Assembly (NCBI RefSeq): GCF_024972735.1
Contig: NZ_CP087723.1
Span: 1,364,001 to 1,428,000 of the forward strand
Origin: Halalkaliarchaeum sp. AArc-CO
GTDB taxonomy: Archaea > Halobacteriota > Halobacteria > Halobacteriales > Haloferacaceae
Direction of reading: 5' to 3'
DNA: 64,000 nt
Positions 18,211 through 53,703 of this stretch are shown in pieces. The translations under genes were made by a program, and so were the position numbers. Position 1 is the first letter of the stretch. Each line of letters starts with the position of its first letter. The notes under the pieces were generated by a model. That model searched no databases. It was not told the DNA's origin and saw only the letters and a program-made list of their open reading frames with translations.

Positions 18211-21200
18211 TCACTCCTCGAACCCGGGACCGACGGTAAACGAGGCCGGCGCGCAGGGAAGTTGGTTGTGCTGACACCACCGGCAGTGCTCATCCGAAGT
18301 GTACCGACTGAACGAGAACTCAACAATATCGTTCATCGACGACGTCACGTCATCTCTGACTGCTTCCAGATCACCATCGCTGAACGTTCGAGATTCGACT
18401 TTCGGCCCGATGTCACCGACATAAGCGTATCCCGCACGTGCGACAGGCTCATCGTACAGGTCACGGCACGCTAACAGGTAGATCGGGAGTTGCTTATCGT
18501 CCTCCAAGTCGCGGTGACGTTCGGTCGCCTTGTAATCGATGACGACCAGTTCGTCGTCAGGCGTCCGGTAGACGGCGTCAATATAGCCGACGAGTTCGTG
18601 CCCATCGATAGTGAGTTCGAACTCTCGCTCCGCGTCGATGATCTCGTAACTGGGGAGATCTAACTCGAAGTACCGGTCGATGCACTGTTTTGCCGCCGGG
18701 AGCGCGTCCTCAGCGCGGCGCTGACTGGCGAGTCGCTCGCAGATCTCGTACCACTCCCCACGACGTTCCACCCCTTGATTCGCGGCTTGCTCAGCGGTGT
18801 CGTGGAACAGCAATCCGATCTCACGTTGCGATACACCTTCTTTCGCATCGCTCGTGGCCGCAGTCTCCTGATAGTCAGGGAACGCGTTGACCACGTAGTC
18901 CAAATAGTGACTCCGCGGGCATTCCTCATAGGCCGCCAGCGACGTGTAGCTGTGAGAGAGCGATGGCGACGGTGTCGACGGGCCAGTCAGCGACCCAACC
19001 TGGAGGATTTCCCGCTCGGCTCTCGGTGAGAGACTCCCATCGACAGTGGCCGTTGCCAGGTTTAGCACACGGTCGCGCGCAACCCCAACCGCGAGATCTT
19101 CCCCATCGTGCCTGACGGTACCGCCGACACTTCCGACGGTCTCGCTGGCCAGCGTGTTCGTCCAGTCTACTGCGTCGTCCGGGAGACACTCTTGAACGTC
19201 GGTCCAGAGTGGGAGCTGTCCTCGCTCCGGCTGCCATGGGATTCGAGAGGGGAGGATCTCGTCAACCAGCTCTGAAACAGCGTTCTCGTCCGCAGCATCG
19301 TCACCTTCGTCGCTGCCACCCTGCAGGACGAGGATGTCCTCGGCACGCGTGATCCCGACGTGGAACACGCGCCGTGTCTCACGGGCATCACGCTCGACGA
19401 AGTCCTGTGCGAACGCTGCCTCTGGGCCATCCGAGAGGCTGGTTTCGAGCGCGTCGTACGTGCGTGAACTTGGTGCCCACTCGTCAGCGGTGACTTGTGG
19501 GATGAGGACGACCGGGAAGTCCAGGCCCTTGCTTTTGTGGATGGTCATCACGTTGACCGCGTCGTCGGCGACGTCCGGCTGACTCGTGGGCGTGGTGCCA
19601 CTTTCGTCGAACAGGGAGTCGTAGTGTTCGAGCGAGTCGATGAACTCCGGAGTCAGCGGCGGTTGGACGGCACTATCCCCGTACTGTTCGATGACGTCCT
19701 CCAGTTGGGTGAGATCCCGGCGCTCCTGCTCGCTGAGATACCACTCGATGTTCGTGCGGTCCGTGAGTTCGCGGTACAGGTGGCTGAGCGACGCCGAATC
19801 ACGAATACCGAGTAGTTCCGTGGCGTGCTCGCGGGCTTCTGCGACGCGGTCGGGCTCCTTGAACTCGTCGAGCGGTGTCTCACGGAGCGTGTCCACGAGT
19901 GGGTCGTCGCCCGCGTTGAGCGTGCGGAGGTCCGCGTCGCAGAGCCGGTACCGCATCAGGAGGACGCGGTTCCAGCTCACCTCGTCTTCGGGGCGTGCGA
20001 GTGCCTTCAGGTAGGCGGTCACGGTGCCGACGCCGACCGATTCCGTGGCCAGATCCCCAGCAACTTGGTACGGGATGCCAGCGTCTTCGAATTCCTCGAT
20101 GACAGGTGTCGCGTGGGCGTTCTTCCGGACGAGTAACGCGATATCACCTGGATCGTACACCTCATCGAGGTTGTCTGCTGCGCCGCTCACCAGATTCTGG
20201 ACGACGGTGCGAAGCTGGGTCGCACCGTCCGCATCGTCCTCGTCCGGCAGTTCGACGGTAGCGACGGTGTCCCCGTCGTACGCAGGTTCGTCGACGCGAG
20301 TGAGTGTCTTGTGTCGTTCACGGTGATCGAGCTTCTGAATCGCCTCGTTCGCCAGGTCCAGAATCGGCTGTCGGGAGCGGAAGTTCTCCTCCAGCGGTTC
20401 GTCCGTGAGCGCCGCGAACGCTTGGTCCAGTTCGTCGGTGATGTTGGCGACGTTCGCGCCGCGCCATTCGTAGATCGCCTGATCGTCGTCGCCGACGACG
20501 AACAGATTATCGTCGGTGACGAGTGACGTGACGAGGTCGAACTGGAGGCGATCCGTGTCCTGGAACTCGTCGCAAAACACGTAGTCCCACCGCTCGGCGA
20601 TTTCCTCGCCGACCGACGAGTCCATCAGCGCAGCTGTCTCGACCACCAGGCCGTCGAAGTCGATGAGGTTACGCTCGTCCAGTTCCCGCTCGTACGCCGC
20701 GTACCCGGCGGTGAGATCTCGGGCGGTAAGACAGTCGGACACGAACGAGTCGAGGTGGTCCGTGAGTTCGAGACCAAGATCGTCCGGGATCCCTTTCGGG
20801 GCACCGCTTGCGTACCCGCCGAACAGGTACTTCGGGAGTTTGTACGCGTTGTCCGGCAGGTCACGCTCGCCAGCCTGGTGGGCCTCGAACGCGGTTTCAA
20901 GCGCATCACACAGGTCGACGAGCCGGTCGAGGAAATCCCGAGCACTGGCCTCGATCCCGTCCGTTCCCAACCCGTCGCGTTCCGCGGTGAGTTCATCGCG
21001 CACCTCGGGAAGTGAATCCAGCACGCTTGCCACGGACCGGCCACCGAGATGGTCGCTAGCGATTGCTTCGATGTGCTCCGGCAGGTCGGCGAGGTCATAG
21101 ACGCGGTCGGCGGGCCCGAGGAACGCGTCGATGTCGTCTGGCGAGATGCCGCTGCGCTTCATCGACCCGATAAAGCTGAGCAGCTTCGACGCAGCTCCGG

Positions 21201-21669
21201 ACGCGTACCCGTCGCTGCCGTACACGTTGGGTTTGACCGACCGGTACTCGATGTCGTCCAGAACATCCAGCACGATAGCGTACTTCTCGGCGTCCGTGGC
21301 GACCTCGAAGTCCGGGTCGATCCCGGCTTCGTAGGCGTAGTCAGTGAGGATCTCGTTACAGATCGAGTGGTACGTGTACGCGTCGATGTCGTACCCCGCT
21401 GTCCCGAGTTTCGCGTTAAGCTTCTCCCGCATCGAGTCCGCCGCGTTGTTCGTGAACGTCAACGCGAGAATCCGGTCTGGCGAGACGTCTTCCTCGTCGA
21501 TGAGGTGCTCGATCTTCCGCACCATCGTGAACGTCTTGCCCGTTCCTGCTCCTGCGAGCACACGCATCGGGTACGCGTCGGAGTTGATGATTGTCCGCTG
21601 TTGAGGCTCTGGGGACACGTCTTCTTCCGGCACCGGAAACCAAGACGGGTACTCGGACTCGTCGCTCAT
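18211..21669 (-). CDS. AddA/UvrD-like SF1 helicase fused to an Fe-S PD-(D/E)XK nuclease
   Basis: A 1152-residue protein. Residues 37-46 (VLAGAGTGKT) are Walker A, followed by ILALTFTNNAADSMREKL (motif Ia) and VFCDEFQDTDRLQFDLV (Walker B). VGDDDQAIYEWRGA is motif III, VMTIHKSKGLDFPVV motif V and VFHVGITRAED motif VI. The C-terminal 270 residues hold YEECPRSHYLDYV, a D-x-K nuclease centre (VGYIDAVYR, LVVIDYKATE) and CRWCQHNQLPC, so four cysteines can bind an Fe-S cluster as in AddB and Cas4. The predicted role is unwinding and degrading DNA ends. It is the last gene of the Argonaute operon and overlaps the upstream nuclease gene by 4 bases. Confidence 0.9.
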   Translation of the reverse strand: MSDESEYPSWFPVPEEDVSPEPQQRTIINSDAYPMRVLAGAGTGKTFTMVRKIEHLIDEEDVSPDRILALTFTNNAADSMREKLNAKLGTAGYDIDAYTYHSICNEILTDYAYEAGIDPDFEVATDAEKYAIVLDVLDDIEYRSVKPNVYGSDGYASGAASKLLSFIGSMKRSGISPDDIDAFLGPADRVYDLADLPEHIEAIASDHLGGRSVASVLDSLPEVRDELTAERDGLGTDGIEASARDFLDRLVDLCDALETAFEAHQAGERDLPDNAYKLPKYLFGGYASGAPKGIPDDLGLELTDHLDSFVSDCLTARDLTAGYAAYERELDERNLIDFDGLVVETAALMDSSVGEEIAERWDYVFCDEFQDTDRLQFDLVTSLVTDDNLFVVGDDDQAIYEWRGANVANITDELDQAFAALTDEPLEENFRSRQPILDLANEAIQKLDHRERHKTLTRVDEPAYDGDTVATVELPDEDDADGATQLRTVVQNLVSGAADNLDEVYDPGDIALLVRKNAHATPVIEEFEDAGIPYQVAGDLATESVGVGTVTAYLKALARPEDEVSWNRVLLMRYRLCDADLRTLNAGDDPLVDTLRETPLDEFKEPDRVAEAREHATELLGIRDSASLSHLYRELTDRTNIEWYLSEQERRDLTQLEDVIEQYGDSAVQPPLTPEFIDSLEHYDSLFDESGTTPTSQPDVADDAVNVMTIHKSKGLDFPVVLIPQVTADEWAPSSRTYDALETSLSDGPEAAFAQDFVERDARETRRVFHVGITRAEDILVLQGGSDEGDDAADENAVSELVDEILPSRIPWQPERGQLPLWTDVQECLPDDAVDWTNTLASETVGSVGGTVRHDGEDLAVGVARDRVLNLATATVDGSLSPRAEREILQVGSLTGPSTPSPSLSHSYTSLAAYEECPRSHYLDYVVNAFPDYQETAATSDAKEGVSQREIGLLFHDTAEQAANQGVERRGEWYEICERLASQRRAEDALPAAKQCIDRYFELDLPSYEIIDAEREFELTIDGHELVGYIDAVYRTPDDELVVIDYKATERHRDLEDDKQLPIYLLACRDLYDEPVARAGYAYVGDIGPKVESRTFSDGDLEAVRDDVTSSMNDIVEFSFSRYTSDEHCRWCQHNQLPCAPASFTVGPGFEE

Positions 21670-22568
21670 CGGTGCACCTCCGTGGACAGTCGGTCAGCAC
21701 ACATCTCTCGATAGTCGCAGTCCGGGCACGCCTCCTCAGTAATAAGGTCGAGCGGTTCCGGCTCGTACGTCTCACCCGTGATACCATCGTGGGCGTCTCG
21801 GATGAGCGCCCAAATCGTGTCGTAGTGGTTCTCGTAGATTTCCGTGGTTTCCCGAGGCCAGCCACGCGCGGACACGTCGTATCCGCTCGGGGTGCTCTCG
21901 AACGACGTGCTGTTGAGGATTCCGTAAAAGCTGAACCGAACCTCCATCCCGTCCTCGTAGAACGGTTCATTCTTCACGCCTTCGACGTATGTCGCCGTCT
22001 GGAACGCGTTCCGGACCCGCTTCGGTTCGTGGGCCTCTCCGTTGAAATGGTCGTTAAGGTATTCGGCTGTCCCCGACGAAAGAATCCCGTCCGTGTTCCG
22101 CTTGTAGTCGAAGATGTGCAGCCCGTCGTCAGTCCGGACGACGTTGTCAGCTTTCCCGTGGAGTTCTCGACCATCCACTTCGCACTCCACCCAACATTCC
22201 GTGGTGACCGAGTAGCGAGCGTGCTCGATCCCGTCACCGCCGTCCGGATCGAAGAACGACGCGATGGCAGCGCGGTTCTCAGCTCGTTGGTACTCCTGAT
22301 GCGCAGCGGATTCGTAGTCGTCCGGGGTACTGTGTTCGTCCCACTTCGCATCGAAGACCTGCATCGCCCGGTTGTGTATCGTCTCCGGGTCGTCATCGCG
22401 GTCAGTCGCATCACACACGTCCTCGATAGTCTCGTGGTAGATCGTTCCTTGGTTGAGATACAGTTCTGTACGGTCCGGCGCGTTCACGTCTTGCGTGTAG
22501 CGGTAGTCGTACAGCCGCGGACACGTCGCGTAGTTCGCTAACCGCGACGGGGAGAGCGACGAACTCAT
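21666..22568 (-). CDS. Cas4/RecB-like PD-(D/E)XK nuclease with Fe-S cysteines
   Basis: A 300-residue protein. RLANYATCPRLYDYRY carries the first cysteine and CPDCDYREMC the C-terminal three, the arrangement of Cas4 and AddB nucleases. The catalytic core is GTIYHETIED, GKADNVVRT and LHIFDYKRNT (D-x-K), followed by a QTATYVEGV helix. A single-strand exonuclease processing ends is the likely activity. It overlaps both neighbours by 4 bases, so the three helicase-nuclease genes are translationally coupled and probably form one complex. Confidence 0.85.
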   Translation of the reverse strand: MSSSLSPSRLANYATCPRLYDYRYTQDVNAPDRTELYLNQGTIYHETIEDVCDATDRDDDPETIHNRAMQVFDAKWDEHSTPDDYESAAHQEYQRAENRAAIASFFDPDGGDGIEHARYSVTTECWVECEVDGRELHGKADNVVRTDDGLHIFDYKRNTDGILSSGTAEYLNDHFNGEAHEPKRVRNAFQTATYVEGVKNEPFYEDGMEVRFSFYGILNSTSFESTPSGYDVSARGWPRETTEIYENHYDTIWALIRDAHDGITGETYEPEPLDLITEEACPDCDYREMCADRLSTEVHR

Positions 22569-24622
22569 CGCCGCACCTCCTCGTTAGCGAATTCGACACG
22601 TGCACGCAACGCTTCTCGGAGCTCGTCTCCTCGGGAGCCGCTTTGTTCGAGTAGGTCCTGAATCTCTCCGAGTTCCGCTTCGACCTCGTCAAGCGACACC
22701 GTCACGTCCTGACTGTTCGCGCGGCGTACCTCCGCGAGCGCGTCGTCAACCCGCGACAGCAGGTACTGCTCCGCCGCTTGCTCACTCGTAATGTGTGGCT
22801 CATCGGCCTCGGTCACCCACGGAAGATCCTCATACGCTGCTGTGAGGAACCGCGATGCCTGCGTACGCTCTTCGAGCGCCGTGTCTTCGTACTCGTAGAG
22901 ACAACAGTAGAGCCGCTCTGTCGCCGCGCCAGCACCGACAGCTAACCGTCGACGCGCGTGCTCCGTGTGGTACTGGGCGAACGATCGTCCTGACGCTGTC
23001 GACGTCGTCGGGAACGTCGCATCCACGTCCGATCCATCGAGTTCCGTTACACCAGGGTAGTCTGGCATCGACGCGACTCGCTCGCTCGGGAACAACCGTG
23101 TCAGGAACGGGTCACCTGGGTACTCACTGTCGACGAGATTCACGAGGAACACAGCGCGGAAGGACTCGTTCTTGATCGCTTGCAAGTGATCGACGCGGAC
23201 ACCACCGTTGAGATCCGTCGCGCTTGTCTGGTTCTGCTGCGGTGCGTATTCGTGAGCGCGTTCGAGCATCTCCTTGTAGGATTCCCACGTCGCATCCACA
23301 AACTCGGTCTCTTCGAGGAACTCGGCCATTCGGAACGCCCGTCGGACGTTCCCGAACTGCGCCCGTGCATCCAACGGGGCCGCCCGCTCCGCGATCCGCT
23401 CTTTTAACCCGGAGTCCGTTGCCCACCAGCGAATCGCGTCTCCGAGGCTCTCCGTCTCGCTGACACGGTCTAAGCGGTCCGTATCGAGTTCTGGACCGTG
23501 GTCGGGTACATCATCTTCCTCGTCGGCGAAGTACCGAACGGCCGCGAGGAGTTCCCGAATCGCGGGATCGTCACCGAACCCGGTGACGGTTGTCGATTCC
23601 GTTGGAATCCCGGTGCCTTCGAACGCTTCGATAATGTCTGTAACAGCACTCCCGCTTTGCTTCGTGGCGACAGCGATGTCGTCGTACCCCCAGTCCGGCT
23701 GCGCGACGAGCTCTTCAATCTCGTTCGCAATCTCAGCGAGTTGTTCGTCACTGGAGTCTGTGGCGAGGACGGACACCGACCCGGCTTCCGGATCTTCCGG
23801 GACCGTTTCTTCGGCGAAATAGGCTGCCGTTGCAGCTGGTCGCGTCGACGGCGTCCCCGATGCCCCTTGTCGGGATTCGCTGAACGAGACGTAGTTCGTG
23901 ACTGGCCCTGTCTCAACCCACGTCCGGCGCACACTCGCGTGCTCTTCAGCGACACAGACGAGCTCGCAGTCTCCCGCAAGCGCGTCGAGATACGCGCGAT
24001 CAAGCGGGAAGAACTCCTCAAACTCGACCGCGATCACCGCGTCGAAATCAACGACGTCGCCGCGGGCATCCCCGGTGAGGACATCGAGCGCTTCCGAGAT
24101 GAGTTGCCCGCGCTCCATGTGCCCGTGCTCGGCGAGCCACTCGTGGAACGCGTCAAGCGCAGTCGTGATGTCACGGAGTTCCGGAGTATCGTCAGGCCTG
24201 ACCGTCTGCCAGGAAATCGTGCCCATCACGGCATCCACGTCCTCAATGAACGACGGCTGCGCAGACGCCCGTTGGAGGTACTCCGTGTCCCACTCGTAAT
24301 CTGCGAGGAACCGGTACAGGAGTTCCCGCCGTAGGGCGTCGGAGAGAATGACGCGGTCATCGGTCTGGTTGAGGACATCGGTCGCGTGCACTACCGACGA
24401 CGTCACGTACGGCGTCGCCGCGCCCGGCAGTTCCTCACCTAACGCTTCACGGAACGTGTCTGCGCTCGTCGGCGCACCGGTGATGACGAGCACGTCCTCA
24501 GAATCGTGCTCGTCGAGAAGCATTCGGTATTCGTTTCGCGCTGTCCGTTCGACGTTTTCGCCCCCGAACGGTACCGTGACTAACGCCCCGTCGAACTGCC
24601 GGTGAGATGAGTGATTAGACAT
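22565..24622 (-). CDS. AddB-like inactivated helicase subunit
   Basis: A 685-residue protein. The N-terminus (GALVTVPFGGENVERTARNE) is where a P-loop would sit, but no GxGKT is present. Further on it has SF1-helicase-like segments: an ANEIEELVAQPDWGYDDIAV block, ESFRAVFLVNLVDSEYP, and ARRRLAVGAGAATERLYCCL in the motif VI position. This pattern fits a structural AddB/RecC-like subunit that has lost ATP binding. The nuclease domain usual at the AddB C-terminus is instead the separate gene at 21666-22568, which overlaps by 4 bases. AddB assignment is by pattern and context, not by alignment. Confidence 0.65.
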   Translation of the reverse strand: MSNHSSHRQFDGALVTVPFGGENVERTARNEYRMLLDEHDSEDVLVITGAPTSADTFREALGEELPGAATPYVTSSVVHATDVLNQTDDRVILSDALRRELLYRFLADYEWDTEYLQRASAQPSFIEDVDAVMGTISWQTVRPDDTPELRDITTALDAFHEWLAEHGHMERGQLISEALDVLTGDARGDVVDFDAVIAVEFEEFFPLDRAYLDALAGDCELVCVAEEHASVRRTWVETGPVTNYVSFSESRQGASGTPSTRPAATAAYFAEETVPEDPEAGSVSVLATDSSDEQLAEIANEIEELVAQPDWGYDDIAVATKQSGSAVTDIIEAFEGTGIPTESTTVTGFGDDPAIRELLAAVRYFADEEDDVPDHGPELDTDRLDRVSETESLGDAIRWWATDSGLKERIAERAAPLDARAQFGNVRRAFRMAEFLEETEFVDATWESYKEMLERAHEYAPQQNQTSATDLNGGVRVDHLQAIKNESFRAVFLVNLVDSEYPGDPFLTRLFPSERVASMPDYPGVTELDGSDVDATFPTTSTASGRSFAQYHTEHARRRLAVGAGAATERLYCCLYEYEDTALEERTQASRFLTAAYEDLPWVTEADEPHITSEQAAEQYLLSRVDDALAEVRRANSQDVTVSLDEVEAELGEIQDLLEQSGSRGDELREALRARVEFANEEVRR

Positions 24623-24627
24623 GTCTA

Positions 24628-26748
24628 TTACCCTCGGACGAGCCGCGTGACCCGAGACAGCACACCGATGTCGTCAGCGGCTGTCTCGGTATTGCATCGT
24701 GCATCTTCAATGACACTGGGCTCATCAATCCAATTCTGGAACCTGTTCGCGCTTTCAAACTGAACCGCCGGCCCGTAAATACCCGCCCGGATATGGGCTG
24801 GCGTGGCCTTCTGGAACTCCCAGCATTGCTGCTGGTCCAGATGTGCCGAGAAATCAGCGACAATCCGTCCGTCGTCCTTGAAATCGAGTTCACACAGCCC
24901 GTCGGACAGCGCACTGATCCACTTCCGACGCCCCGGATCGTGCTCCTGCTCGGCGGGTGTCTCAAGCGGAACGTACTCCGGCGGTTCCTTCTCGGCATAC
25001 GCGTACAGCTCCACGAACACGTCCCGAGCATCCGCGAGCCGATCCGACTGATCTGGAAGCGAGATATCCCGCTGCAAGAACAGATGAGCGAACCACGGGA
25101 ACAGGTTACAACTGTCTGCCTGCCCCGCGATCTGCGCGGCGGCTTCGCGTTCGTCTTTCTTCAGTTCGGAGAAGTTAACGTTGAAATCCAGCGTCTTCAT
25201 CCGAGTGCGGAGTTCGGATTTCGGCTTCGTGGAGTCGTTCGAGGAGAAAATGAACGTCGGCATCTGGATAGACCCATCCCACTTCCCCTCCCAGTACGAC
25301 TTGATGATGTCCCGGTCGATTTTCGACTTCGCCACGTCGTCAACGATGTACGGGAAAACTGTGTCCGACGCACGAGCGCGCTCGATGTTGTTTTTCACGA
25401 AGTCGTCCCCGGTCGTGACTTCCTGCACGTACCCGTTCGAGATGAGACGCGTCCCGAACCGCAGGAACATGCCTTTCCCGCTGTCGTTGTCACCGTGGAG
25501 GAACAGGAACGGTAGATCCTTGTCCAGCTCTGCGGACTCGTATTCGGCGTAGTGATGGGCGCAGTAGTTAGCGAACGGAGCCCAGCAGAAGTAGATAATT
25601 CCCTCGTAGAAATGTGCCCGCGTCTCCTTTGGCGTTCGCGTTTCGCCGAACTCGCCGACAGTTTCGATGTACTGCTCGATCAGGTCGAGTGCGTCAGCGA
25701 CTTCCTGCGGATCGTCCGGCAGTGGTGCTGTTAGTTCAAGGACGGAGTCGTCAACTCGCAACCCGACATTGTTCTCGTCTCTATCGACGTTGAGATCTGG
25801 ATACCCTGTGAAGGTCTCTTTGTACCGCGCGATGCCGGCGGGTGTCGCTACGATTTCGCCGTCGTTGATCCGGATGTTATTGGCAGACAGCGTGTCGTCC
25901 AGATTCGAGATAGCGTCTTCGAGGCCCTGCGGGGAGAGGCGGACACGCTTGTCCGGACTGATTTCGGTTGGATCGGTGTCTGTATCTTCAGCGGCGAACA
26001 CCGCTTTCTCTGCTTCTTCGGCGTCGGTGACGACGTTGTACGTATTGACCTGGTCGTCGTCAACTGCTTCGTCGAGCCGGGCGTTCAGCTCGGCGACCGG
26101 GTCGTCACTGAACTCGTCGCCGCCCAGCCAGATGTCGTAGATCTTCGCCTCTTCTTCTGCCGTTTCGGCGTCCTCGATCTCCTCGGTGAGATCCTCCATG
26201 AACGGCGTCGCGTAGTCCTTGTGGAACGCGTACAGCCGTTCGAACCACTCGTCGACGGGCGTGTCCCCGTCGGTACGCCAGGCGATGTTGACGTTGGTTT
26301 GCTTGCTCCCCTGCCAGGCCTGCTTGGAGAGGTTCGCCGACCCACAGATGAGTGTACGTGACCCGTCCTGGTTCTCGACGATGTAGAGTTTCGTATGAAG
26401 CAGGACGCGTGCGGAATCGACGGTGTGGATGAGCAGATCACCGTCTTGGCGCAGCGATTCCAGTTGCGCGGCGATCCTCTTCGCGTTGCTCGTGTTCTTC
26501 AGCGAGCGCCGGTAGTCGTCGTGCTGGCTGTCCCCGACGATGACCTCCAGTGAGTCCACTGCGAGATCCTGATTCTGAAACATCTTGTAGATGAACGCGG
26601 GGGACTGACTGTACGTGACGCAGTAGACGTGCTGGGCGTCACCGAAGTAGTTCAGGAAACTATCCCATGATTTGTCGGCAGCCATCTCCAGATCGGCGGT
26701 GCTGCCGTCATCGAAATCGACTGTTGCTTCGAATTCTGTCTTGGTCAT
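24628..26748 (-). CDS. Phospholipase D-like domain fused to SF3-type ATPase
   Basis: A 706-residue protein. Residues 30-200 form a PLD-like nuclease domain with HTK at 118-120 and GSANLS at 136-141, one HKD half-site, so a dimer would be needed for activity. Residues 380-620 resemble a D5/SF3 primase-helicase ATPase: FLFLHGDNDSGKG (Walker A, 419-426), VFPYIVDD (Walker B, 464-471), TFIFSSND (sensor, 498-505) and RTRMKTLDF as a possible arginine finger. The two domains are joined by an acidic linker. It lies 63 bases after the Argonaute gene and 5 bases before the AddB-like gene. A role as effector or loader for the Argonaute is inference. Confidence 0.75.
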   Translation of the reverse strand: MTKTEFEATVDFDDGSTADLEMAADKSWDSFLNYFGDAQHVYCVTYSQSPAFIYKMFQNQDLAVDSLEVIVGDSQHDDYRRSLKNTSNAKRIAAQLESLRQDGDLLIHTVDSARVLLHTKLYIVENQDGSRTLICGSANLSKQAWQGSKQTNVNIAWRTDGDTPVDEWFERLYAFHKDYATPFMEDLTEEIEDAETAEEEAKIYDIWLGGDEFSDDPVAELNARLDEAVDDDQVNTYNVVTDAEEAEKAVFAAEDTDTDPTEISPDKRVRLSPQGLEDAISNLDDTLSANNIRINDGEIVATPAGIARYKETFTGYPDLNVDRDENNVGLRVDDSVLELTAPLPDDPQEVADALDLIEQYIETVGEFGETRTPKETRAHFYEGIIYFCWAPFANYCAHHYAEYESAELDKDLPFLFLHGDNDSGKGMFLRFGTRLISNGYVQEVTTGDDFVKNNIERARASDTVFPYIVDDVAKSKIDRDIIKSYWEGKWDGSIQMPTFIFSSNDSTKPKSELRTRMKTLDFNVNFSELKKDEREAAAQIAGQADSCNLFPWFAHLFLQRDISLPDQSDRLADARDVFVELYAYAEKEPPEYVPLETPAEQEHDPGRRKWISALSDGLCELDFKDDGRIVADFSAHLDQQQCWEFQKATPAHIRAGIYGPAVQFESANRFQNWIDEPSVIEDARCNTETAADDIGVLSRVTRLVRG

Positions 26749-26811
26749 GCGAGGGTCACCAGTGTGTTGACGGGTACGTGAGTGGTTGTGTGGGGCTGTG
26801 CTGGTGCATGG

Positions 26812-28236
26812 TCAGATGTACGGGACACCGCGGATGACGCTGCCTTTGGTGAGGTAGCCCTTCATGGCGAAGTCGGCGCACTTGTCGGCGTAGTACGTGG
26901 TGATGGGGAGCCGAGTGGAGCGGCTCAGCGACCCGACGTGTGCTTCCGATAGCCAGTAGGTTTGCTCCGCGAGCGTGTCGAGATCTGTCGATCCGTGCCG
27001 TTTCACGATCTGTAACGGCCGCGGCGTGCCTGGACTGCCCTCCTTCCCACCGGTCGTGGTCAGGTAGGAGTGGTCGCCGTTGTGAACATAGAAGGCGACG
27101 CCTTTGTCCGCGATGTCGAACCGTGATTTCGATTCGTCGTACTTGGCGATGCGGGGGTTCCCGGATTTCCGGATCTCGACGAGGTCGAACCGCTGGATGA
27201 GATCGCGGGCTTTGTCGAGACGGTTGATGAGGCTCTCGACGTCGAGGTAGAACTTCCCGTCCCGATGGATTACCACGTGCCGGGGCGGTCGGCCTTCCTC
27301 TTCGGCGAAGATTTCCAGGACGTGCTTGATGACGTTCGCTACGTCGTCCTCGTCGAACGTCTCGCCAGCCTGCTTCGTGACGGCCTCGGACGCGAGGATG
27401 GTTCCGTCGGCCATGATGACGTTCGCGGCTGCGCCGAGGTGTTGCTTCGTCGCGTGGTCGTAGGTCACGTCAAGGCCGACGAACGCGTCAACGCCCCCGG
27501 GAACGTCGTCGATCCGCCACGGCACCCCGCCCGCTTTCCCGATAAGGGACGAGCAGATATTCCCGCCGTAGTTGTCGTTACCGAGGTTGTCGACGGAGAT
27601 CATCTGACTCGGCACGCCGAGTTGGCCGAGCCGCCGCTTGAACTCGGGATACGGATCGTCGTAGTCCGCTTCTGCAGCCTCGTCTTCGTCCGGCACGACG
27701 ATCAGTGCCGCATCGTAGTCACTCGCTTTCTGCGCGGGCTGGGAGTAGTGGAACTCCGAGCCGAGTTCGTAGGTGTCGCGGTCGAACGCTGTCGGGCTCG
27801 CATCGTAGTCTGCGAGCTTGTTGAGCAGCGATAGCACGTATGGCCGTGCGTCATCCTCGTCGTCTTCGGGATACAGCGCGATGATGTCGAACGACTCTGG
27901 TGACTTGTACACGCCGTAGCCGTTCCGTTCCAGCCCGCCAGCCCCGTAGTACCCTGTCTGTCCGTCACCGAACCGCAGGTTCGGGATATTCCGCGTCTTG
28001 TGTTCTCGGTACCCGGCGTTCGTGGGTTGGGGGGTTGGGTCGAAGTTGAAGTACGGTGTCGGACCGAGCAGGTCGACGAACGACGTGACGACGTTGAACC
28101 GTTCCTCGGGTTTCATCCGGCTCTCATTGTGGATGACGTCCAGGAACGCGTCATCGACGCGACCCAACTGCTCGAACGTCGGGATAACCTTACAGTATTT
28201 GGCTCTGTAGTTTCGGTACACGGCGGTTGATTTCAC
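26812..28236 (-). CDS. Prokaryotic Argonaute, MID-PIWI part; N-terminus removed by an IS
   Basis: 474 codons are open. The PIWI domain carries a full catalytic set: D256 (AFVGLDVTYD), E292 (QAGETF), D326 (VVIHRDGKF) and D451 (TTYYADKCADF). The MID region has GVPSQM and IGKAGG as likely 5'-end-binding residues, and ARLPIT-like RLPITTYYAD is the family C-terminal block. It resembles the C-terminal half of long haloarchaeal Argonautes of about 850-900 residues. Codons 1-12 belong to the IS at 28201-29126, so the original N and PAZ domains are gone. Expression would depend on IS sequence. It may be a pseudogene, or survive as a short Argonaute. Confidence 0.88.
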   Translation of the reverse strand: MKSTAVYRNYRAKYCKVIPTFEQLGRVDDAFLDVIHNESRMKPEERFNVVTSFVDLLGPTPYFNFDPTPQPTNAGYREHKTRNIPNLRFGDGQTGYYGAGGLERNGYGVYKSPESFDIIALYPEDDEDDARPYVLSLLNKLADYDASPTAFDRDTYELGSEFHYSQPAQKASDYDAALIVVPDEDEAAEADYDDPYPEFKRRLGQLGVPSQMISVDNLGNDNYGGNICSSLIGKAGGVPWRIDDVPGGVDAFVGLDVTYDHATKQHLGAAANVIMADGTILASEAVTKQAGETFDEDDVANVIKHVLEIFAEEEGRPPRHVVIHRDGKFYLDVESLINRLDKARDLIQRFDLVEIRKSGNPRIAKYDESKSRFDIADKGVAFYVHNGDHSYLTTTGGKEGSPGTPRPLQIVKRHGSTDLDTLAEQTYWLSEAHVGSLSRSTRLPITTYYADKCADFAMKGYLTKGSVIRGVPYI

Positions 28237-29126
28237 GGATATCTCACGCTCCGGCGGAGGTTGTAGACGGTGGCTTTCAGCAGCATTTCACGGAACTCAA
28301 GCCACCAGCTTCGCGCACGCACGGCTGCCCCGAGCGTGCGCTTGATGCTTGAGAAGACGGTTTCGTTCATCGAGCGGCGATTGTACCGATCACGGTCTAT
28401 GCGGGCGTTGTGAGCGTGATCGAGCGGGTTCATGATACGGTGTTTAATCAGCGGTCTCACACCGTTTTCGCGGAGTTCATCGCGGAAGGCTTTCGCGTCG
28501 TAGCCACGATCAGCCGCGAGGCTCCGCAGGTCGCCGGCGTTACGCCGAGCGACCTGCGGGCCGATCTTCGCATCGTGTTTCTTGCTCGTTGTAGAGTGGA
28601 TGTCGGTGATGTACAGCGTTTCGACATCCACCAAGGCAGTGACTTTCAGCGCCCGGACGCGGTAGTGCGTGCGGTTGGCGTAGTGGCGACTGGGGTGGTC
28701 GCGGTCGAAGCCAGTCGAATCGATGGCGGCGTGGCCAGTGCGTTTCTCGGCGCGTCAGCCGAGAAACGCACGCCACGTCTTCGTTGGAATCCGTGCAAAC
28801 CACGTGCGGAGGACAGTGTAGTGAGGAAGCCGTGTAAGGCCGATCTCTTCGAGGACACCGGGCATCTCACTGAGCAAATCCACCGTGACGCGGTAGGATT
28901 TGCCCAGCTCGATGCGGAGTGCATGCAGCGTGAGCATCGCCCACTCGGCGAACCCGCCACCCCCTTCGGGGTCGGCGGGTTCGTCCGGGTTAGCGACAAC
29001 TGATTTAGCCTTAGCCACCGTAACACGCGTGAGGAGACGGAATTCCGATACCACAACATTCCGTCTCTTCGCTTTCTACGGCAATAACGCAGTCGCGGTG
29101 TCTCCGTCTAGCGAAACTACAGAGCC
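28201..29126. mobile_element. 926-bp IS5-type insertion sequence without target duplication
   Basis: Terminal inverted repeats GGCTCTGTAGTTTCG (28201-28215) and CGAAACTACAGAGCC (29112-29126) are perfect over 15 bp and enclose one transposase gene. The flanking bases (CAGTATTT and CATATTAC) do not form a direct repeat. Both neighbouring genes are cut exactly at its ends, which points to deletion or rearrangement rather than simple insertion. Confidence 0.88.
28233..29054 (-). pseudogene. IS5-family transposase inactivated by an in-frame stop
   Basis: One continuous frame of 274 codons. It starts MVSEFRLLTRVTVAKAKSVV (GTG at 29054) and ends VYNLRRSVRYP. The only break is a TGA at 28755-28757, after KTWRAFLG. 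HAAIDSTGFDRDHPSRHYA just after the stop holds the first catalytic Asp, LAADRGYDAKAF the second, and MNETVFSSIKR the Glu. The stop lies in a 6-bp core between 11-bp inverted repeats. Inverting that core would restore GASAEKR. Confidence 0.85.
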
Positions 29127-29962
29127 CATATTACCAATATCCTTACTCGACCAACCTTTCCGATAGACATTGAACTCATAGACGGTAATAGACTAGCAGA
29201 AGACAGATTGAATGAAATACGTGAAACACTAGATCGGAATGCAAGAGCTGGAAGTTATATGCAAATCAACTCCCCTCATCCTGCGAATCAATTAATTTCA
29301 CCACTATCTCGTTTAGCTGGAAACTATGCAATACGAGAGAATCGGTCAGAGCTGGAATCCCTCAGTGAAGAACTCCTAGTCTCATATTCGGTGGCAACAG
29401 ATAACGACCTGCCATCGACAGTAAATTGGAACGAGGAAAATCAATATACGGATTCAGATACGTTCGTCCATGCAACTTATGGGGAGGGTGCAGCTAGAAT
29501 TGCAACCCACGATAGAGGCGACACATTCTGGGAAAAAATTGAAACTTTGTCCGAGTCTGCTCGGGTAGCGGTTACGGAGACCGAGAGACACGAATGGAGC
29601 TTCTATTGCCACGTAGTCTCATCAGCTGCACCAGTGATATCCGATACTAATGAAATCACCAATCTCGTAGAAAACGTGGAAACTGCCCTTATAAACACTC
29701 AATCATATTCGTCCGTTGGAAATTCGAAACGAGGGCGTGCTTTGTTTTATTCGAACGTGGTTCACCAATTAATGCGTAAACATTCTTATCATAGTGTTTC
29801 AAGATGGACAAGAGCAATTAATATTAGGACAGATACCGGTCTCGACGCACTCCCATACTTCCATCGAGGAATTGTAGAGATCTGTGGATTGCGTTGTGAA
29901 GAGTTAAGACTCCCGTATCGATGGTTAGAGTGGATCGCAGAGCAAGAGAATTTATTGTACAA

Positions 29963-31025
29963 GAGCCTGTCATAGAAAGCGTCACGTACGAAGCGGCAGG
30001 GTGCGCGAAGTGTGTCCAACACCAGCACAGCCCTGCAAGACGTAGCTTCGGTAGACGACTTCTTGAATGTCGCGGCTACCGAGACGGTATCGCTGTTCGA
30101 CCATCTTGAGTTCGAGTTTCTGCTGGAGTACGACGTGTTCGCCCCCGCTCGCCGGGGGCGAACACGAGTTCACGAGCCACCTGATCTCTTTCGCGGCTTT
30201 TTGCACTGCTACTACGAGGATGTCTACGGCACACGTCCGGTGACACGAGAACTTCAGAACGGCCTTGTCTGGTACTACTGCGGACTCGACAAACCGCCAT
30301 CCAGAGACACGGTTGATCGCTTTCTCACCGACCTCGAACACGTTATTGACGATGTCTTCGACAGACTCGTCGAGCAGGCCGCCGCCCGCGGCCTGCTCGA
30401 CTCCACGTACTCCATCGATTCGACCCACGTTGAAGCGATCCAACACAACGACGCTGCCTCGTGGAATTACGATCCAACAGCTGAGGAATACTACTACGGC
30501 TTCGGCTGTACGATCGTTTCAACCGGTTCAAAGATCCCGATAGCAGCGGAGTTCACACAGGCCAAACAAGCGGATCAGGAGACGGCGATGCGCGTCACGC
30601 GTGACGCGCTCGCCGTCGATACACCGGTCTGGATGCTGGGAGACAGCGCCTACGACATCCTCGATTGGCACGACCACCTGCTGGCCGCAGGGGTCGTGCC
30701 AATCGCTCCATACAATCCGCGAAACACTGACGACCCGAAAGACATCGAGTACAGGATCGAAGACCGAATCGAGGAACACAGCGAGGACGTGCAGCTGAAA
30801 CAGTCCATCTTGGAGGAGACGTACAACAACCGGACAGGAGTCGAACGAACCAACGACGCAGTCAAGGACTGCGGCCTCGGGCAGGTCTGCGCCCGAGGCC
30901 GCGTCCACGCACGGACAGAAGTGTTCCTTGCGCTGTGTCTCCGACTCGTCGTGGCCATCACCAACTACGAGCGAGGAAACAATCCGGGCTGTGAGAAGCT
31001 ATGAGATGGATTCTATGACAGGCTC
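29963..31025 (+). mobile_element. 1063-bp IS (IS5-like) with 7-bp target duplication
   Basis: Inverted repeats GAGCCTGTCATAGAA (29963-29977) and TTCTATGACAGGCTC (31011-31025) are perfect. The target duplication TGTACAA is at 29956-29962 and 31026-31032. It holds one complete transposase gene and interrupts the gene that spans it. Its ends match those of the mini-element at 16081-16485 apart from base 5. Confidence 0.92.
30012..31004 (+). CDS. IS5-family transposase, intact
   Basis: A 330-residue DDE transposase starting at GTG 30012. An N-terminal helical domain is followed by STYSIDSTHVEAIQHND (first Asp), VWMLGDSAYDILDWHDHL (second Asp) and YNNRTGVERTNDAVKDCGLG (Glu with the IS5-type spacing). 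The C-terminus ends LVVAITNYERGNNPG. The gene fills the IS, leaving 49 bases on the left and 21 on the right. No frameshift or stop is seen, so the element may still be mobile and may also move the mini-element. ISH9-like is possible, but the exact name is not claimed. Confidence 0.9.
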   Translation: MSNTSTALQDVASVDDFLNVAATETVSLFDHLEFEFLLEYDVFAPARRGRTRVHEPPDLFRGFLHCYYEDVYGTRPVTRELQNGLVWYYCGLDKPPSRDTVDRFLTDLEHVIDDVFDRLVEQAAARGLLDSTYSIDSTHVEAIQHNDAASWNYDPTAEEYYYGFGCTIVSTGSKIPIAAEFTQAKQADQETAMRVTRDALAVDTPVWMLGDSAYDILDWHDHLLAAGVVPIAPYNPRNTDDPKDIEYRIEDRIEEHSEDVQLKQSILEETYNNRTGVERTNDAVKDCGLGQVCARGRVHARTEVFLALCLRLVVAITNYERGNNPGCEKL

Positions 31026-31287: not shown

Positions 31288-32301
31288 CTAGAGGTTGTCG
31301 AGATATTCGCGGCGCTGTTCCATCTTCTCTCGTTCAGTACGTCGGTCGTAGTGCTGTTCGATCACCCGCTGACTGACGTTCGCTCGGTCACTGACGACCT
31401 TATCCGGCATGTCACTGTTCAGGCTGTGCGTGATGCTTCCGCGGCGAATTGCGTGAGGACTCACGCTCGACGGACACTCGTAGGCAGTGTCCCGCTCTAC
31501 TGCTGAACACTCGCCGAGGCCGCGGTCGTGTGGACACTCGGTGCTATAGACACACGGACGAGTCCAGCGGTACACGTAGGCACGCAGCGTCGTCTTATTG
31601 GTCCGTCCTTCCCGCGAGGCCAGCAACGGTTCTCGACCGTACTCGTCAGTTACCGACGGTCGCTTGGCGTCTAACCAGTCATTGAGGAGATTACAGACTT
31701 GGTCTGAGAGCGCGACCATCCGTTCACCTTCTCCCTGGTTTTTGATCGGGGTGCCTGTATCTGGTCGATGACGGACCTTGATACACTTCTCGTTTGAATC
31801 GTAGTCGTCAATGTCGAGTGCGTGAACACCGCCGACGCGCATCATCGTGTGCCACATCAGGGCAATTGAGACGTGCTGGATGCTCGCGTATTCGTACTTC
31901 TCCAGATGCGCGAGCACCTTCGAAGCATTGTCACTGTCCAACATTACGTCCCGAGAGTTCTCATCAGGAGTGATCGCCGGAGACAGCACCTTCTGACTCA
32001 GGTCCTGTTCTACGCCGTCGACAGACTCTAGCCACCGGATGAACACGCGAAGGGTATCCATCTGCGTCTTCTCGCTGACCTTGTTCAGGTCGCCATCCTC
32101 GCGCCGCCAGAGCCGGTACTTGTGCAGCTGGCGGCCGCTAAGTTTGTTGAGATTCTGTATCTCTTCTACCTCATCACACCAGCGGACGAAGTGACCGAGT
32201 CGGTACTTGTGCCCCTTCAGAGAGGCCTCCGATAATTCGTTCCCTCTGTCAGCGAGGTACAGTTCAAGCGCGGTTTCAGCATCTATTGGTTCGAGACTCA
32301 T
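31288..32301 (-). CDS. Tyrosine recombinase / integrase (left copy)
   Basis: A 337-residue integrase from ATG 32301. It has an N-terminal SAM-like core-binding domain, then HTMMRVGGVHALDIDDY (catalytic Arg), SPHAIRRGSITH (H-x-x-R) and VIEQHYDRRT (nucleophile Tyr). A Cys-rich insert (RPCVYSTECPHDRGLGEC) is shared with the neighbouring integrase. Its 3' end overlaps the stop of the split gene by 4 bases. A tRNA T-arm-like sequence (GATTTGAACCCGG, 32425-32437) lies 124 bases upstream of its start. It probably belonged to the Argonaute-bearing island. Confidence 0.9.
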   Translation of the reverse strand: MSLEPIDAETALELYLADRGNELSEASLKGHKYRLGHFVRWCDEVEEIQNLNKLSGRQLHKYRLWRREDGDLNKVSEKTQMDTLRVFIRWLESVDGVEQDLSQKVLSPAITPDENSRDVMLDSDNASKVLAHLEKYEYASIQHVSIALMWHTMMRVGGVHALDIDDYDSNEKCIKVRHRPDTGTPIKNQGEGERMVALSDQVCNLLNDWLDAKRPSVTDEYGREPLLASREGRTNKTTLRAYVYRWTRPCVYSTECPHDRGLGECSAVERDTAYECPSSVSPHAIRRGSITHSLNSDMPDKVVSDRANVSQRVIEQHYDRRTEREKMEQRREYLDNL

Positions 32302-32770
32302 GGTTGGTCTTCTTCGGTCAAGCGAACCCCACGAGTCCCGGTTACTGCCCGTTCCGAACCAACGGCTACAATGCCCGAAATCGCCAAAATGAAGGGTTGT
32401 CACACCGCGTGACCAGGGCCTGCAGATTTGAACCCGGAGGAAGACGGTCGCTCACTCCGTTCTCGCTGCGTCTTCCAGGGCTTCAAATCCACGCGTCCGC
32501 AAGGCGGACGCTCGGCTCGTCCATTCTCGCTCCCTCGTAAAACTCGGTCGCTCCGATGGACTCGCCGGGATTTTTCACCACGGGGCACTCTCCCAGCCTC
32601 GGTCGTTCGGCGCTTCGCGCCTCACATGACCTCGGGTTGGTCAGACCGCCGTGGCTCAAACGTACCGCGGCTCGTCCACTCGCTCGCGCCTTCGGCGCTC
32701 GCAGGCCGCGCAGCCCAACAACCGTTGCTCGTACCTCCGTTTCCTGGTTCCGGTTACAAGGAGTCAACGT
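32302..32770. other. Integrase intergenic region: hairpins and attachment-site remnants
   Basis: The 469 bases between the divergent integrases have no supported gene. They hold GATTTGAACCCGG (32425-32437), the inverted repeat GGAAGACG/CGTCTTCC (32439-32446 and 32469-32476), the hairpin GCGTCCGC-AAG-GCGGACGC (32493-32511) and the tRNA-Ala fragment at 32556-32595. These are features expected of an attachment region with integrase binding arms. Confidence 0.6.
32556..32595 (-). repeat. attL candidate: 3' part of tRNA-Ala
   Basis: ATGGACTCGCCGGGATTT (32556-32573) is identical to 61166-61183 at the 3' end of tRNA-Ala(GGC). The match continues with small changes (CGGGGC-CTCTCCCA) to 32595, that is, to the edge of the anticodon arm. 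Same orientation as the tRNA, so it is a direct repeat 28.6 kb away. An integrase gene starts 175 bases to the right. Confidence 0.75.
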
Positions 32771-33775
32771 ATGCTGGAACCAACAACACCAGAAGAAGCA
32801 GTTGAACTGTACCTGAAAGACCGGAAAGGTGACATCGCTCACTCTACCCACAACCGTCATCACGAGCGTCTCAAACGCTTTCTGGAGTGGTGCGAAGAGA
32901 CAGGCTTCGACAACATGAACGACATCACTGGTAAGAAGCTACTTGAGTACAAGCAGTGGCGCAAAGCCGACGGGCTGGCGAACGTGACCCTGAAGAACCA
33001 GCTCTGGACACTTCGTGTGTTCCTCCAGTTCTGCGAAAACATCGATGCCGCCCCGAAACGCATTAACGAGAAAATGAGGATGCCTGATCTCGATGTGGGC
33101 GAGGACACAAGAGATGTCCTCGTCACCTCAGCGGAAGCCGAACAAATCCTTGACTACTGCGAGAAGTTCGAATACGCGACACCTCGTCACGTCACGTTCT
33201 ATCTTCTATGGCACACCGGGATCCGGTCAGGAACGGCCAGAGCCCTTGACGTCAGTGACTACTACTCGAAAGAGCAGTACCTTGATGTTTCGCACCAGCC
33301 TGAACAGGGCACTCCACTGAAGAATAAAGAGCGTGGTGAACGCCAAATCACCCTGAAAACCGAACTCTGCGAAGTCTTAGATGACTACATCGATATGCAC
33401 CATCCGATGCAAGAGGACGACTACGGCCGTGTGCCCTTGTTAGGCACGTCTCACGGCCGACCTCACAAAACGACTATCCAGTACAAGATCTACACGCTCA
33501 CCCGCCCGTGTCACTACACGAACGAGTGTCCACACGACAGAGATCCAAACGAGTGCGAAGCAAACAGTCACAGCCAAGCGAGTCAGTGTCCCAGCTCTGT
33601 GAGTCCACACGCCGTCCGTCGAGGCTCGATCACCCACCATCGAAAGGCTGAAATCCCGAAAGATGTGGCATCCGAGCGAATGAACGTGAGTACGGAGGTG
33701 CTCGATAAGCACTACGACCGCCGAACCAAAGAAGAACAGCGAGAGGCGAGACAAAAGTACCTCGACGGACTCTGA
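32771..33775 (+). CDS. Tyrosine recombinase / integrase of the tRNA-Ala element
   Basis: A 334-residue integrase from ATG 32771. HTGIRSGTARALDVSDYYS holds the first Arg, SPHAVRRGSITH the H-x-x-R, and VLDKHYDRRTKEE the catalytic Tyr. The whole protein parallels the left integrase, including the Cys-rich insert (RPCHYTNECPHDRDPNEC), but the two have clearly diverged. The gene points into the element and its start lies 198 bases from attL, the usual place for a tRNA-targeting archaeal integrase. Confidence 0.92.
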   Translation: MLEPTTPEEAVELYLKDRKGDIAHSTHNRHHERLKRFLEWCEETGFDNMNDITGKKLLEYKQWRKADGLANVTLKNQLWTLRVFLQFCENIDAAPKRINEKMRMPDLDVGEDTRDVLVTSAEAEQILDYCEKFEYATPRHVTFYLLWHTGIRSGTARALDVSDYYSKEQYLDVSHQPEQGTPLKNKERGERQITLKTELCEVLDDYIDMHHPMQEDDYGRVPLLGTSHGRPHKTTIQYKIYTLTRPCHYTNECPHDRDPNECEANSHSQASQCPSSVSPHAVRRGSITHHRKAEIPKDVASERMNVSTEVLDKHYDRRTKEEQREARQKYLDGL

Positions 33776-48666: not shown

Positions 48667-49386
48667 TTACACGTCGTCAGAACAAAACACTAATCGCGTG
48701 CTATTTTCGGCCAACCAGTTCTTGTGGGCGCGGTATTCTGGATCGTACCGCTCTACCAGTGACCAGAACGCCTCGGAATGATTCGGTTCTTGGATGTGGG
48801 CGAGCTCGTGAATCACAACGTACTCGACGATTTCAGGTGGGGCCATCATCAGCCGCCAGTTCAACCCGATCGTCCCGTTCGTTGAGCAGCTTCCCCACTT
48901 CGTTCGTTGATTCCGAACCTCGATACGATCGTATTCGACGCCCATCTCCGCCGCGTAGTGGCCAGCATACTCCTCAAACTGTTCTCGTGCCTTTCGACGA
49001 TAGAACGTCTCCAGAGCTCGTTTCAACGATGTCCGTTCGACGTTGTGCTCCGCAAGACGTATCGTCCGGTCAACGATCTCCGCCGCGGACCGGACTTCGA
49101 CGACGATTTCGTGAGGTTCGCCGAGGAACGGAAACGTCGTCCCCTCCTCGAACTTACGCTCTGGAACTTGCTCACGATACCTGTCGAACTTCCGCTTTTT
49201 CGCAACGACCCAGTGACCGTTTTCGAGTAACAGTTGTTCCGGATCAGCGGAGACTCCTTCCGGAAGGACGACTGTGATCTCGTGGATACCGACATCGATG
49301 CGGGGCTCGGTCGCATTGCTACTCCGTCTAACGTGATACTCGATCGGTTCGTTCGCAACAGTGACCTGGCGATGTTCGCTACTCAT
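48667..49386 (-). CDS. YgjP/DUF45-type metallopeptidase of the second type I system
   Basis: A 239-residue paralogue of the protein at 988-1713. HELAH at residues 193-197, NH at 202-203 and RTKWGSCSTNGTIGLNWRL are conserved. It overlaps hsdR by 4 bases (ATGA). Repetition of the same gene in the same position after two different hsdR genes supports a conserved four-gene restriction module. Confidence 0.88.
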   Translation of the reverse strand: MSSEHRQVTVANEPIEYHVRRSSNATEPRIDVGIHEITVVLPEGVSADPEQLLLENGHWVVAKKRKFDRYREQVPERKFEEGTTFPFLGEPHEIVVEVRSAAEIVDRTIRLAEHNVERTSLKRALETFYRRKAREQFEEYAGHYAAEMGVEYDRIEVRNQRTKWGSCSTNGTIGLNWRLMMAPPEIVEYVVIHELAHIQEPNHSEAFWSLVERYDPEYRAHKNWLAENSTRLVFCSDDV

Positions 49387-52358: not shown

Positions 52359-53703
52359 GTTGGAGCACTTCGTTTACGATTTCGATATCTTTGTCGTGGG
52401 TTCGGACTTCTCCCGAAAGGAGATCTTGCATAAGGCCTTGTTTGAGCTGTTTATACCGAGCCATTTCATCTTGAAGAGCTTCGACCAGTCTATCGAACTC
52501 CCACAGAATCGATGCAATCTCACGTTGTTCCTCAAGTGGAGGGAGAGCCGTTTTCAGTTCGAGGAGGTCGCTCGTAGCGATCCCCGAGATACTGGTTTCA
52601 GTGATGATCCGTTCGATTGCTTTCGAGCCGATTGGTCCCTCGAAGTACTGGGTGTAGAAGCGGGGATCAGCTTGTCCTGTGAGCCGAATACGAATGAGAG
52701 AGGATTCAAAAACAGTTAGTTCGTCGAGTTTAGGTACGTAGCAACAGTCCCCCGCGGCTGAAACATCTTGAGCCCGACGAGCAAAAATCAGGTCGCCTTC
52801 TTCAAGGGCGTATTTTTCTTTCTCACTTTTTGTGAGTTCGAGCCTGTCAGCAGTTGACATATTGAGAACACGTTCTTCGAGAGCGTTCCCCATTTTGGCT
52901 ATGGGATAACCTTCTCCGTATGCATCGGTGGACTTGTACAGACCATTTCTGTTCGAGTCTATGAGCTCTTTAAACGGGACGATTTCCCATGTAGCAGGGA
53001 CTTTACCGAGCCACGTGTCGACTGTTTCTTGCCCGTTGGTGCTGTGACGAAAGAGATTTTGAGCGACACCCCTTTTTGTTCGCTTAGTCTGAACACTGAT
53101 TTCTTCGGTCTTCTGAATCGCCTGATCGACGGTATAGAGTACGCTGGCGATTTTGTGTTGCTCTTCGATCGAGGGTAAACCAAAGTGAGTCAGCAATAGA
53201 TCTTGTGTGGTGATCCCGTCAACGGTGGTACCACGTCCGAGACTCTTGAGGTATGGATCCTTATCCCAGAGAGAATACACGAGGAACAGGGGATTTATTC
53301 TCTCGGTATCGGGAATGATGGCTTTCATATCCTGATTGATTGCCATATCTACATTGTTGAGGAAGGGCTCTCCTACAGTCATCCGAGTTGAGACAATAAC
53401 CGAGTCAGTCGAAACGACGTTGGTTGCGCTATTCTTAACTCCAGCTTCGGTAATGTGGTCTTCCGTCTCGGATAGCTCAATCCCGTTGAGATCTTTAACA
53501 CTAGCCCAAGGGATGTCTCCTTCCCAATACTCATCGTTACTCTTTGATGGAGTTCCACCGCCAACGAGATTATCGGCGACATCCTCTACTGCGACAATGC
53601 TCCAATCCTTGGGGATCTTATCGATTTCCGGGAGGTGCTGATCTAGTTTCTGTTCATCTGCATTTGACACAAACTCGTCCAGACTCGCCTCCTGCTCACT
53701 CAT
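52351..53703 (-). CDS. hsdS: Type I restriction specificity subunit HsdS
   Basis: A 450-residue protein with two target-recognition domains. The first starts at IDKIPKDWSIVAVEDVADNL and closes with the conserved helix PSIEEQHKIASVLYTVDQAI. The second starts at LGKVPATWEIVPFKELIDSN and closes with PPLEEQREIASILWEFDRLV. Both halves look intact, so the sequence specified is bipartite as usual. It overlaps hsdM and hsdR by 8 bases each, so the operon is translationally coupled. Confidence 0.95.
   Translation of the reverse strand: MSEQEASLDEFVSNADEQKLDQHLPEIDKIPKDWSIVAVEDVADNLVGGGTPSKSNDEYWEGDIPWASVKDLNGIELSETEDHITEAGVKNSATNVVSTDSVIVSTRMTVGEPFLNNVDMAINQDMKAIIPDTERINPLFLVYSLWDKDPYLKSLGRGTTVDGITTQDLLLTHFGLPSIEEQHKIASVLYTVDQAIQKTEEISVQTKRTKRGVAQNLFRHSTNGQETVDTWLGKVPATWEIVPFKELIDSNRNGLYKSTDAYGEGYPIAKMGNALEERVLNMSTADRLELTKSEKEKYALEEGDLIFARRAQDVSAAGDCCYVPKLDELTVFESSLIRIRLTGQADPRFYTQYFEGPIGSKAIERIITETSISGIATSDLLELKTALPPLEEQREIASILWEFDRLVEALQDEMARYKQLKQGLMQDLLSGEVRTHDKDIEIVNEVLQHG

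Follow-up and report, generated by a model that had tools for sequence, protein, structure and literature searches.

The stretch of DNA analysed here, which we call the window, comprises 64,000 nucleotides of the Halalkaliarchaeum sp. AArc-CO chromosome and carries, on the minus strand, a truncated long-A Argonaute (pAgo) gene (26812-28236) whose 5' end lies inside an insertion sequence (IS; 28201-29126). Downstream of it on the same strand are four intact genes: AgaP (24628-26748, 706 aa), which is PLD nuclease-like in its N-terminal part and keeps H118-x-K120 and G136-S137-x-N139; a helicase/AddB-like gene (22565-24622, 685 aa) with a weak Pfam UvrD_C match, the counterpart of which in an intact Salinigranum plasmid module is annotated 'DNA helicase UvrD'; a Cas4-like PD-(D/E)XK nuclease (21666-22568, 300 aa; Pfam PDDEXK_1, PADLOC Cas4); and an AddA/RecB-like UvrD helicase with a C-terminal PD-(D/E)XK nuclease (18211-21669, 1152 aa). 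These four genes are syntenic with relatives over 10-11 kb and belong to a six-gene module of ATPase, pAgo, AgaP, AddB-like, Cas4-like and AddA-like genes (18211-28236 in the window; loci L055-L066 and L117) that is found in several haloarchaeal families at protein identities of 80-97%. The gap between pAgo and AgaP is 63 bp, and no promoter-like box was seen in it by eye.

The far border of the IS coincides with the beginning of a 5'-truncated orphan ORF on the plus strand (29127-29975), which has a G+C content of 43%, as against 60% for the module. The first-pass annotation had this gene entering at 29127 with no start codon before 29208, and we find the same: the frame is open from 29127 and its first start codon is a TTG at 29208. 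The encoded protein has no match in Pfam, PHROGs, 147 other genomes or viral contigs; a viral origin, which we considered, is unsupported, with nothing found among PHROGs or viral contigs. Repeats of the tRNA end, as would mark an island boundary at a tRNA-Arg/att site, were sought in the window and none were found. Further along are a second transposase gene (30012-31004) and two tyrosine integrases on opposite strands (31288-33775), and this cluster of integrases and transposases beside the IS suggests an insertion hot spot. Elsewhere in the window, three adjoining minus-strand genes (49383-55177) resemble, by eye, a type I restriction-modification set.

The insertion sequence and the pAgo junction

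The IS is 926 bp long and has perfect 15-bp terminal inverted repeats at 28201-28215, on the pAgo side, and 29112-29126, on the side of the orphan ORF (GGCTCTGTAGTTTCG / CGAAACTACAGAGCC); extended to 23 bp, the arms are 91% complementary. It is flanked by ACAGTATTT and CATATTACC, with no target duplication, and inspection of its ends and flanks thus bears out what had been claimed of it. Its transposase gene (28233-29054, minus strand) reads towards pAgo. The length of about 0.9 kb, inverted repeats of at least 15 bp, a DDE transposase and the 8-bp duplication around the plasmid copy described below place the element in the ISH1/ISH28-like part of the IS5 family; the transposase matches DDE_Tnp_1 and, by a C-terminal fragment just under the cut-off, NCBIfam transpos_IS5_2, and relatives in PLSDB are ISH28/IS5, including unnamed IS5 elements of haloarchaeal plasmids. 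A second full copy is present in the same genome on a 167-kb plasmid contig (C1:34102-35027), with the 8-bp duplication CGGCACTC around it; of five copies in other haloarchaea, four likewise show 8-bp duplications, so the missing duplication at the window IS is informative. The two copies in this genome differ only at the 6-bp loop (28752-28757) of a perfect 14-bp inverted repeat (28738-28771), which in the window has the opposite orientation to that in the plasmid copy and in five relatives. This flip creates a TGA (28757-28755) that breaks the window transposase, and only that copy; the plasmid frame is open through the site.

The truncated pAgo frame consists of 12 IS-derived codons (36 nt, 28201-28236), opening with a GTG that overlaps the transposase stop codon (GTGA), followed by 462 pAgo codons. 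It had been proposed that the frame is cut at 28201 and that its first 12 codons are IS sequence, and protein similarity to every close intact relative indeed starts at codon 13. Nucleotide homology to all 12 named intact loci stops at 28195-28200, the edge of the IS, and the first 40 bases past the IS are identical to those of Halorubrum sp. 48-1-W, the closest relative. The retained codons correspond to residues 431-892 of the Halorussus marinus pAgo. By profile alignment to CbAgo and CpAgo the breakpoint falls, approximately, at the end of PAZ and the start of L2, a border that we take from general knowledge of Argonaute architecture. Of the long-A set of N, L1, PAZ, L2, MID and PIWI, therefore, only L2-MID-PIWI remains, residues 1-430 being gone. 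Within that part the MID motif (Y196/K200/Q211/N226/K234) is kept, as are D256/E292/D326/D451, which align with the catalytic residues of CpAgo and CbAgo; the top PDB matches are likewise CbAgo and CpAgo (E ~1e-39), making the protein kin to long catalytic pAgos. AlphaFold models from an alignment of 13 close sequences had mean pLDDT values of only 36.8 for the half-pAgo and 32.0 for a full-length relative, the alignment being too shallow.

Comparison with related genomes for an unbroken locus recovered the same pAgo, without IS and at full length (881-900 aa, 81-97% identical), in 14 haloarchaeal genomes from several families. Over the retained part, identity to the C-terminal region of full-length long-A pAgos is 87-98.7% in more than 10 genomes, the closest match giving 98.7%, while an IS-free orthologue of the short length seen here was sought among the relatives and none was found. 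Given these full-length orthologues, the truncation of pAgo at the IS edge is, on sequence comparison, far beyond chance. When residues 1-430 were searched against the whole genome of the strain, only an RPA-type OB-fold protein matched; the lost half is therefore absent and has been deleted, neither inverted nor moved to another place. The first-pass annotation had the N and PAZ half removed. Both are gone, but the loss is larger and takes in an RPA-like OB-fold, L1, the promoter and probably the divergent ATPase. In 11 of the 12 named intact loci a further 1.94 kb upstream of pAgo is conserved, which holds a divergent AAA/DUF4143 ATPase gene (558 aa); this stretch is absent here, and the ATPase was not found when sought in the rest of the genome. 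The same upstream stretch contains a GAAAnnTATTTAT box, likewise conserved and some 30 bases ahead of the start of pAgo, which is promoter-like and which we take as the promoter. If the ancestor was complete, the deletion would have removed at least 3.2 kb.

Age and origin of the junction

Over 920 bp there are no point substitutions between the two IS copies, corresponding to a divergence of at most about 0.33% (95%), whereas dS to the closest pAgo relative is 0.14. These values indicate a recent truncation event. Gene conversion between the copies could mimic such youth. Against the closest relative, pAgo and AgaP have dN/dS values of about 0.05-0.08 and undamaged frames; 15 synonymous and 3 nonsynonymous differences fall on the window branch, and 25 and 6 on the branch of locus L056. 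The truncation is much younger than the split between these two. Because the IS copies show no drift, the low dN/dS and intact frames say nothing about function after the truncation.

In the course that we propose, an ISH1/ISH28-like IS would have landed at codon 430/431 of a long-A pAgo that was still complete and part of a six-gene module, giving a pre-deletion stage with the IS in pAgo and AAATACTG on both sides. A deletion from the IS end would then have taken the 5' side: codons 1-430, encoding OB-fold, N, L1 and PAZ, together with the promoter, the divergent ATPase and more beyond; and the same or a later event would have put the IS against an unrelated, likewise truncated ORF. The likely route is an IS-adjacent deletion, the alternative being recombination between two IS copies. 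Both are established causes of absent duplications and both leave one IS (PMC11708052). The IS5-family adjacent deletions described there likewise have the IS at the deletion edge without target duplication; they differ in that the window element is haloarchaeal and ISH1/ISH28-like and its history is reconstructed rather than watched. The earlier reading had offered either route. Its deletion part is supported by the missing duplication and the missing half, whereas the two routes are inseparable from one genome.

Homologous recombination between two directly repeated IS copies, deleting the DNA between them, is a serious contender, though we lean somewhat against it. A single IS with two unmatched flanks is its expected product, and a second, near-identical copy is indeed present in the genome; but that copy, the sole other full one, lies on the plasmid and has its own matched duplication, so it was not a partner in an exchange, and no second chromosomal copy is left, although this would be expected after either route. 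One might also suspect an assembly error in which a collapsed IS bridges reads from unrelated places, since an element that occurs twice is the usual weak spot of an assembly. We think this very unlikely: the chromosome was assembled as a single contig of 3.01 Mb, the IS on the plasmid lies within a matched duplication, and the loop sets the window copy apart from it. Nor would a misjoin explain why the N half and the ATPase are missing from the whole assembly. That the pAgo was short from the outset, with the IS landing beside it later, would fit the short-pAgo MID-PIWI layout of the retained part, but we regard this reading as refuted by the full-length orthologues, to whose C-terminal part the retained part is so closely identical in more than 10 genomes, and such a reading would also have to accommodate a full DEDD tetrad. 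The overall account, in which IS insertion and a one-sided, recent deletion have probably silenced the operon and cost the strain this defence, is in our judgement probable, if short of certain.

Comparison with known Argonaute systems

The closest described system is APAP of Natrinema pellirubrum, a long-A pAgo with the phospholipase D AgaP (mLife 2024, PMC11442185). In that species, the only one for which this has been shown, AgaP alone is toxic, pAgo suppresses the toxicity, and the system restricts plasmid and virus; a strain with a MID-mutant pAgo and AgaP could not be built (PMC11442185). The window pAgo is 42% identical to the N. pellirubrum pAgo over the retained part, and a PLD-family AgaP, 30.5% identical to that of N. 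pellirubrum, adjoins it in the same order. As we read them, the N. pellirubrum genes give the published residue numbers (Y570/K574 in NpAgo, H105 and G157 in AgaP), so the residue equivalences are firm: Y196/K200 of the window MID correspond to NpAgo Y570/K574, and H118/K120 and G136/S137/N139 of the window AgaP align with H105/K107 and G157/S158/N160. A related ATPase also lies upstream of pAgo in N. pellirubrum, beyond an MBL-fold gene. The window differs in lacking pAgo residues 1-430 and the promoter, and with them a full-length pAgo partner, and in that its subfamily has AddB-, Cas4- and AddA-like genes downstream, where PMC11442185 mentions a helicase near some operons only. In the public annotation of the N. 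pellirubrum locus (L072; NC_019963.1, 118737-123498), pAgo begins about 150 codons late, and AgaP, a single open frame, is broken up into entries on both strands.

Loss of PAZ is a known kind of pAgo truncation, to which the window adds a datable example. Ryazansky et al. 2018 (PMC6299218) listed 31 truncated long pAgos without PAZ, scattered and arising by independent losses. The window pAgo is likewise long-A by sequence with PAZ absent, but it keeps a visible and very young IS lesion at the breakpoint and has lost its entire 5' half. AfAgo, a split or pseudo-short pAgo whose N-L1-L2 subunit comes from a gene of its own and whose PIWI is dead (PMC10954474), resembles it in being a MID-PIWI protein derived from a long pAgo; here, by contrast, the tetrad is complete and no N-terminal partner was found in a genome search with the N half. 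Nor is it a short pAgo of the SPARTA/SPARSA kind: the tetrad is complete, and there is no APAZ-type model among the PADLOC matches of the module.

Other copies of the module have been damaged as well. Intact AgaP adjoins full-length pAgo in 10 other genomes (close subfamily, order-wide sample). Genomes G135 (L107) and G149 (L108) have no pAgo and have lost AgaP residues 1-392 and 1-610, respectively, including the PLD centre, and still have the helicase-nuclease genes; in G367 (L109) pAgo is intact and AgaP has an internal deletion across the PLD centre. On the chromosome of Salinigranum marinum (G063, L046) pAgo is cut at residue 337 beside an intact AgaP, with no IS seen at the junction, which we read as a second, independent truncation; the same cell carries, on a plasmid, a further module that is complete. 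The window is thus the only case seen, in small numbers, of an intact AgaP without a complete pAgo in the genome. Across these copies, one module has been eroded repeatedly from the same side. An AgaP-like PLD protein (46.5% identical) on a plasmid of Halobaculum marinum (L106) has genes for a metallophosphoesterase, an SMC-type ATPase and NurA as neighbours but lacks a pAgo; this cluster is possibly a separate system. Since such distant AgaP-like proteins without pAgo exist, dependence of AgaP may be limited to Ago-linked members.

What remains of the locus, and what it may mean

The remaining frame can, as predicted from its sequence, encode an L2-MID-PIWI protein in which guide pocket and catalytic tetrad are both complete. 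With promoter, PAZ and OB-fold gone, however, guided activity is probably lost, and the truncated pAgo is most likely no longer a guided defence nuclease. The most likely outcome is an operon that the deletion silenced very recently, and the simplest reason why an intact AgaP is tolerated would be that this operon yields little or no transcript. Against silencing, the transposase reads towards pAgo, making read-through transcripts possible, and undamaged pAgo and AgaP frames with low dN/dS would also be expected under retained function.

The half-pAgo might instead still work, translated from the IS-derived GTG on read-through from the transposase, its L2-MID-PIWI binding guides and restraining AgaP as a newly born pseudo-short pAgo, in which case the AgaP arm of the defence would persist. 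Failure to build the strain with the NpAgo MID mutant and AgaP suggests that MID is needed for restraint (PMC11442185), and the MID-PIWI of AfAgo alone binds guide duplexes. In the window AgaP is whole and keeps its catalytic residues, the two pAgo-less genomes have lost the PLD part of AgaP, and the IS transposase is co-oriented with pAgo. Against this, OB-fold, N, L1 and PAZ are lost along with the native promoter, the GTG has no obvious ribosome-binding site, the transposase copy has a premature TGA, and split pAgos of the AfAgo type encode N-L1-L2 as a protein of its own, of which none was found here. Conservation of the sequence is no evidence either, given how recently the event took place. 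The earlier reading had offered a lost system or a short, IS-started protein, a choice that the retained AgaP sharpens. We consider a working half-pAgo unlikely, and prefer the silenced operon.

For most long pAgos that lack PAZ, the way in which they arose can no longer be seen; at this locus the lesion is fresh, and the complete ancestral type is known from 14 genomes. The AddAB-like helicase-nuclease set, which is this subfamily's own, might supply guides and so is a possible guide source. Should the half-pAgo prove functional, it would have been caught before further change and would show how long pAgos can shed N-PAZ while the effector stays restrained. Having retained an AgaP of a kind reported to be toxic without pAgo, the strain is a natural test of which part of pAgo restrains AgaP.
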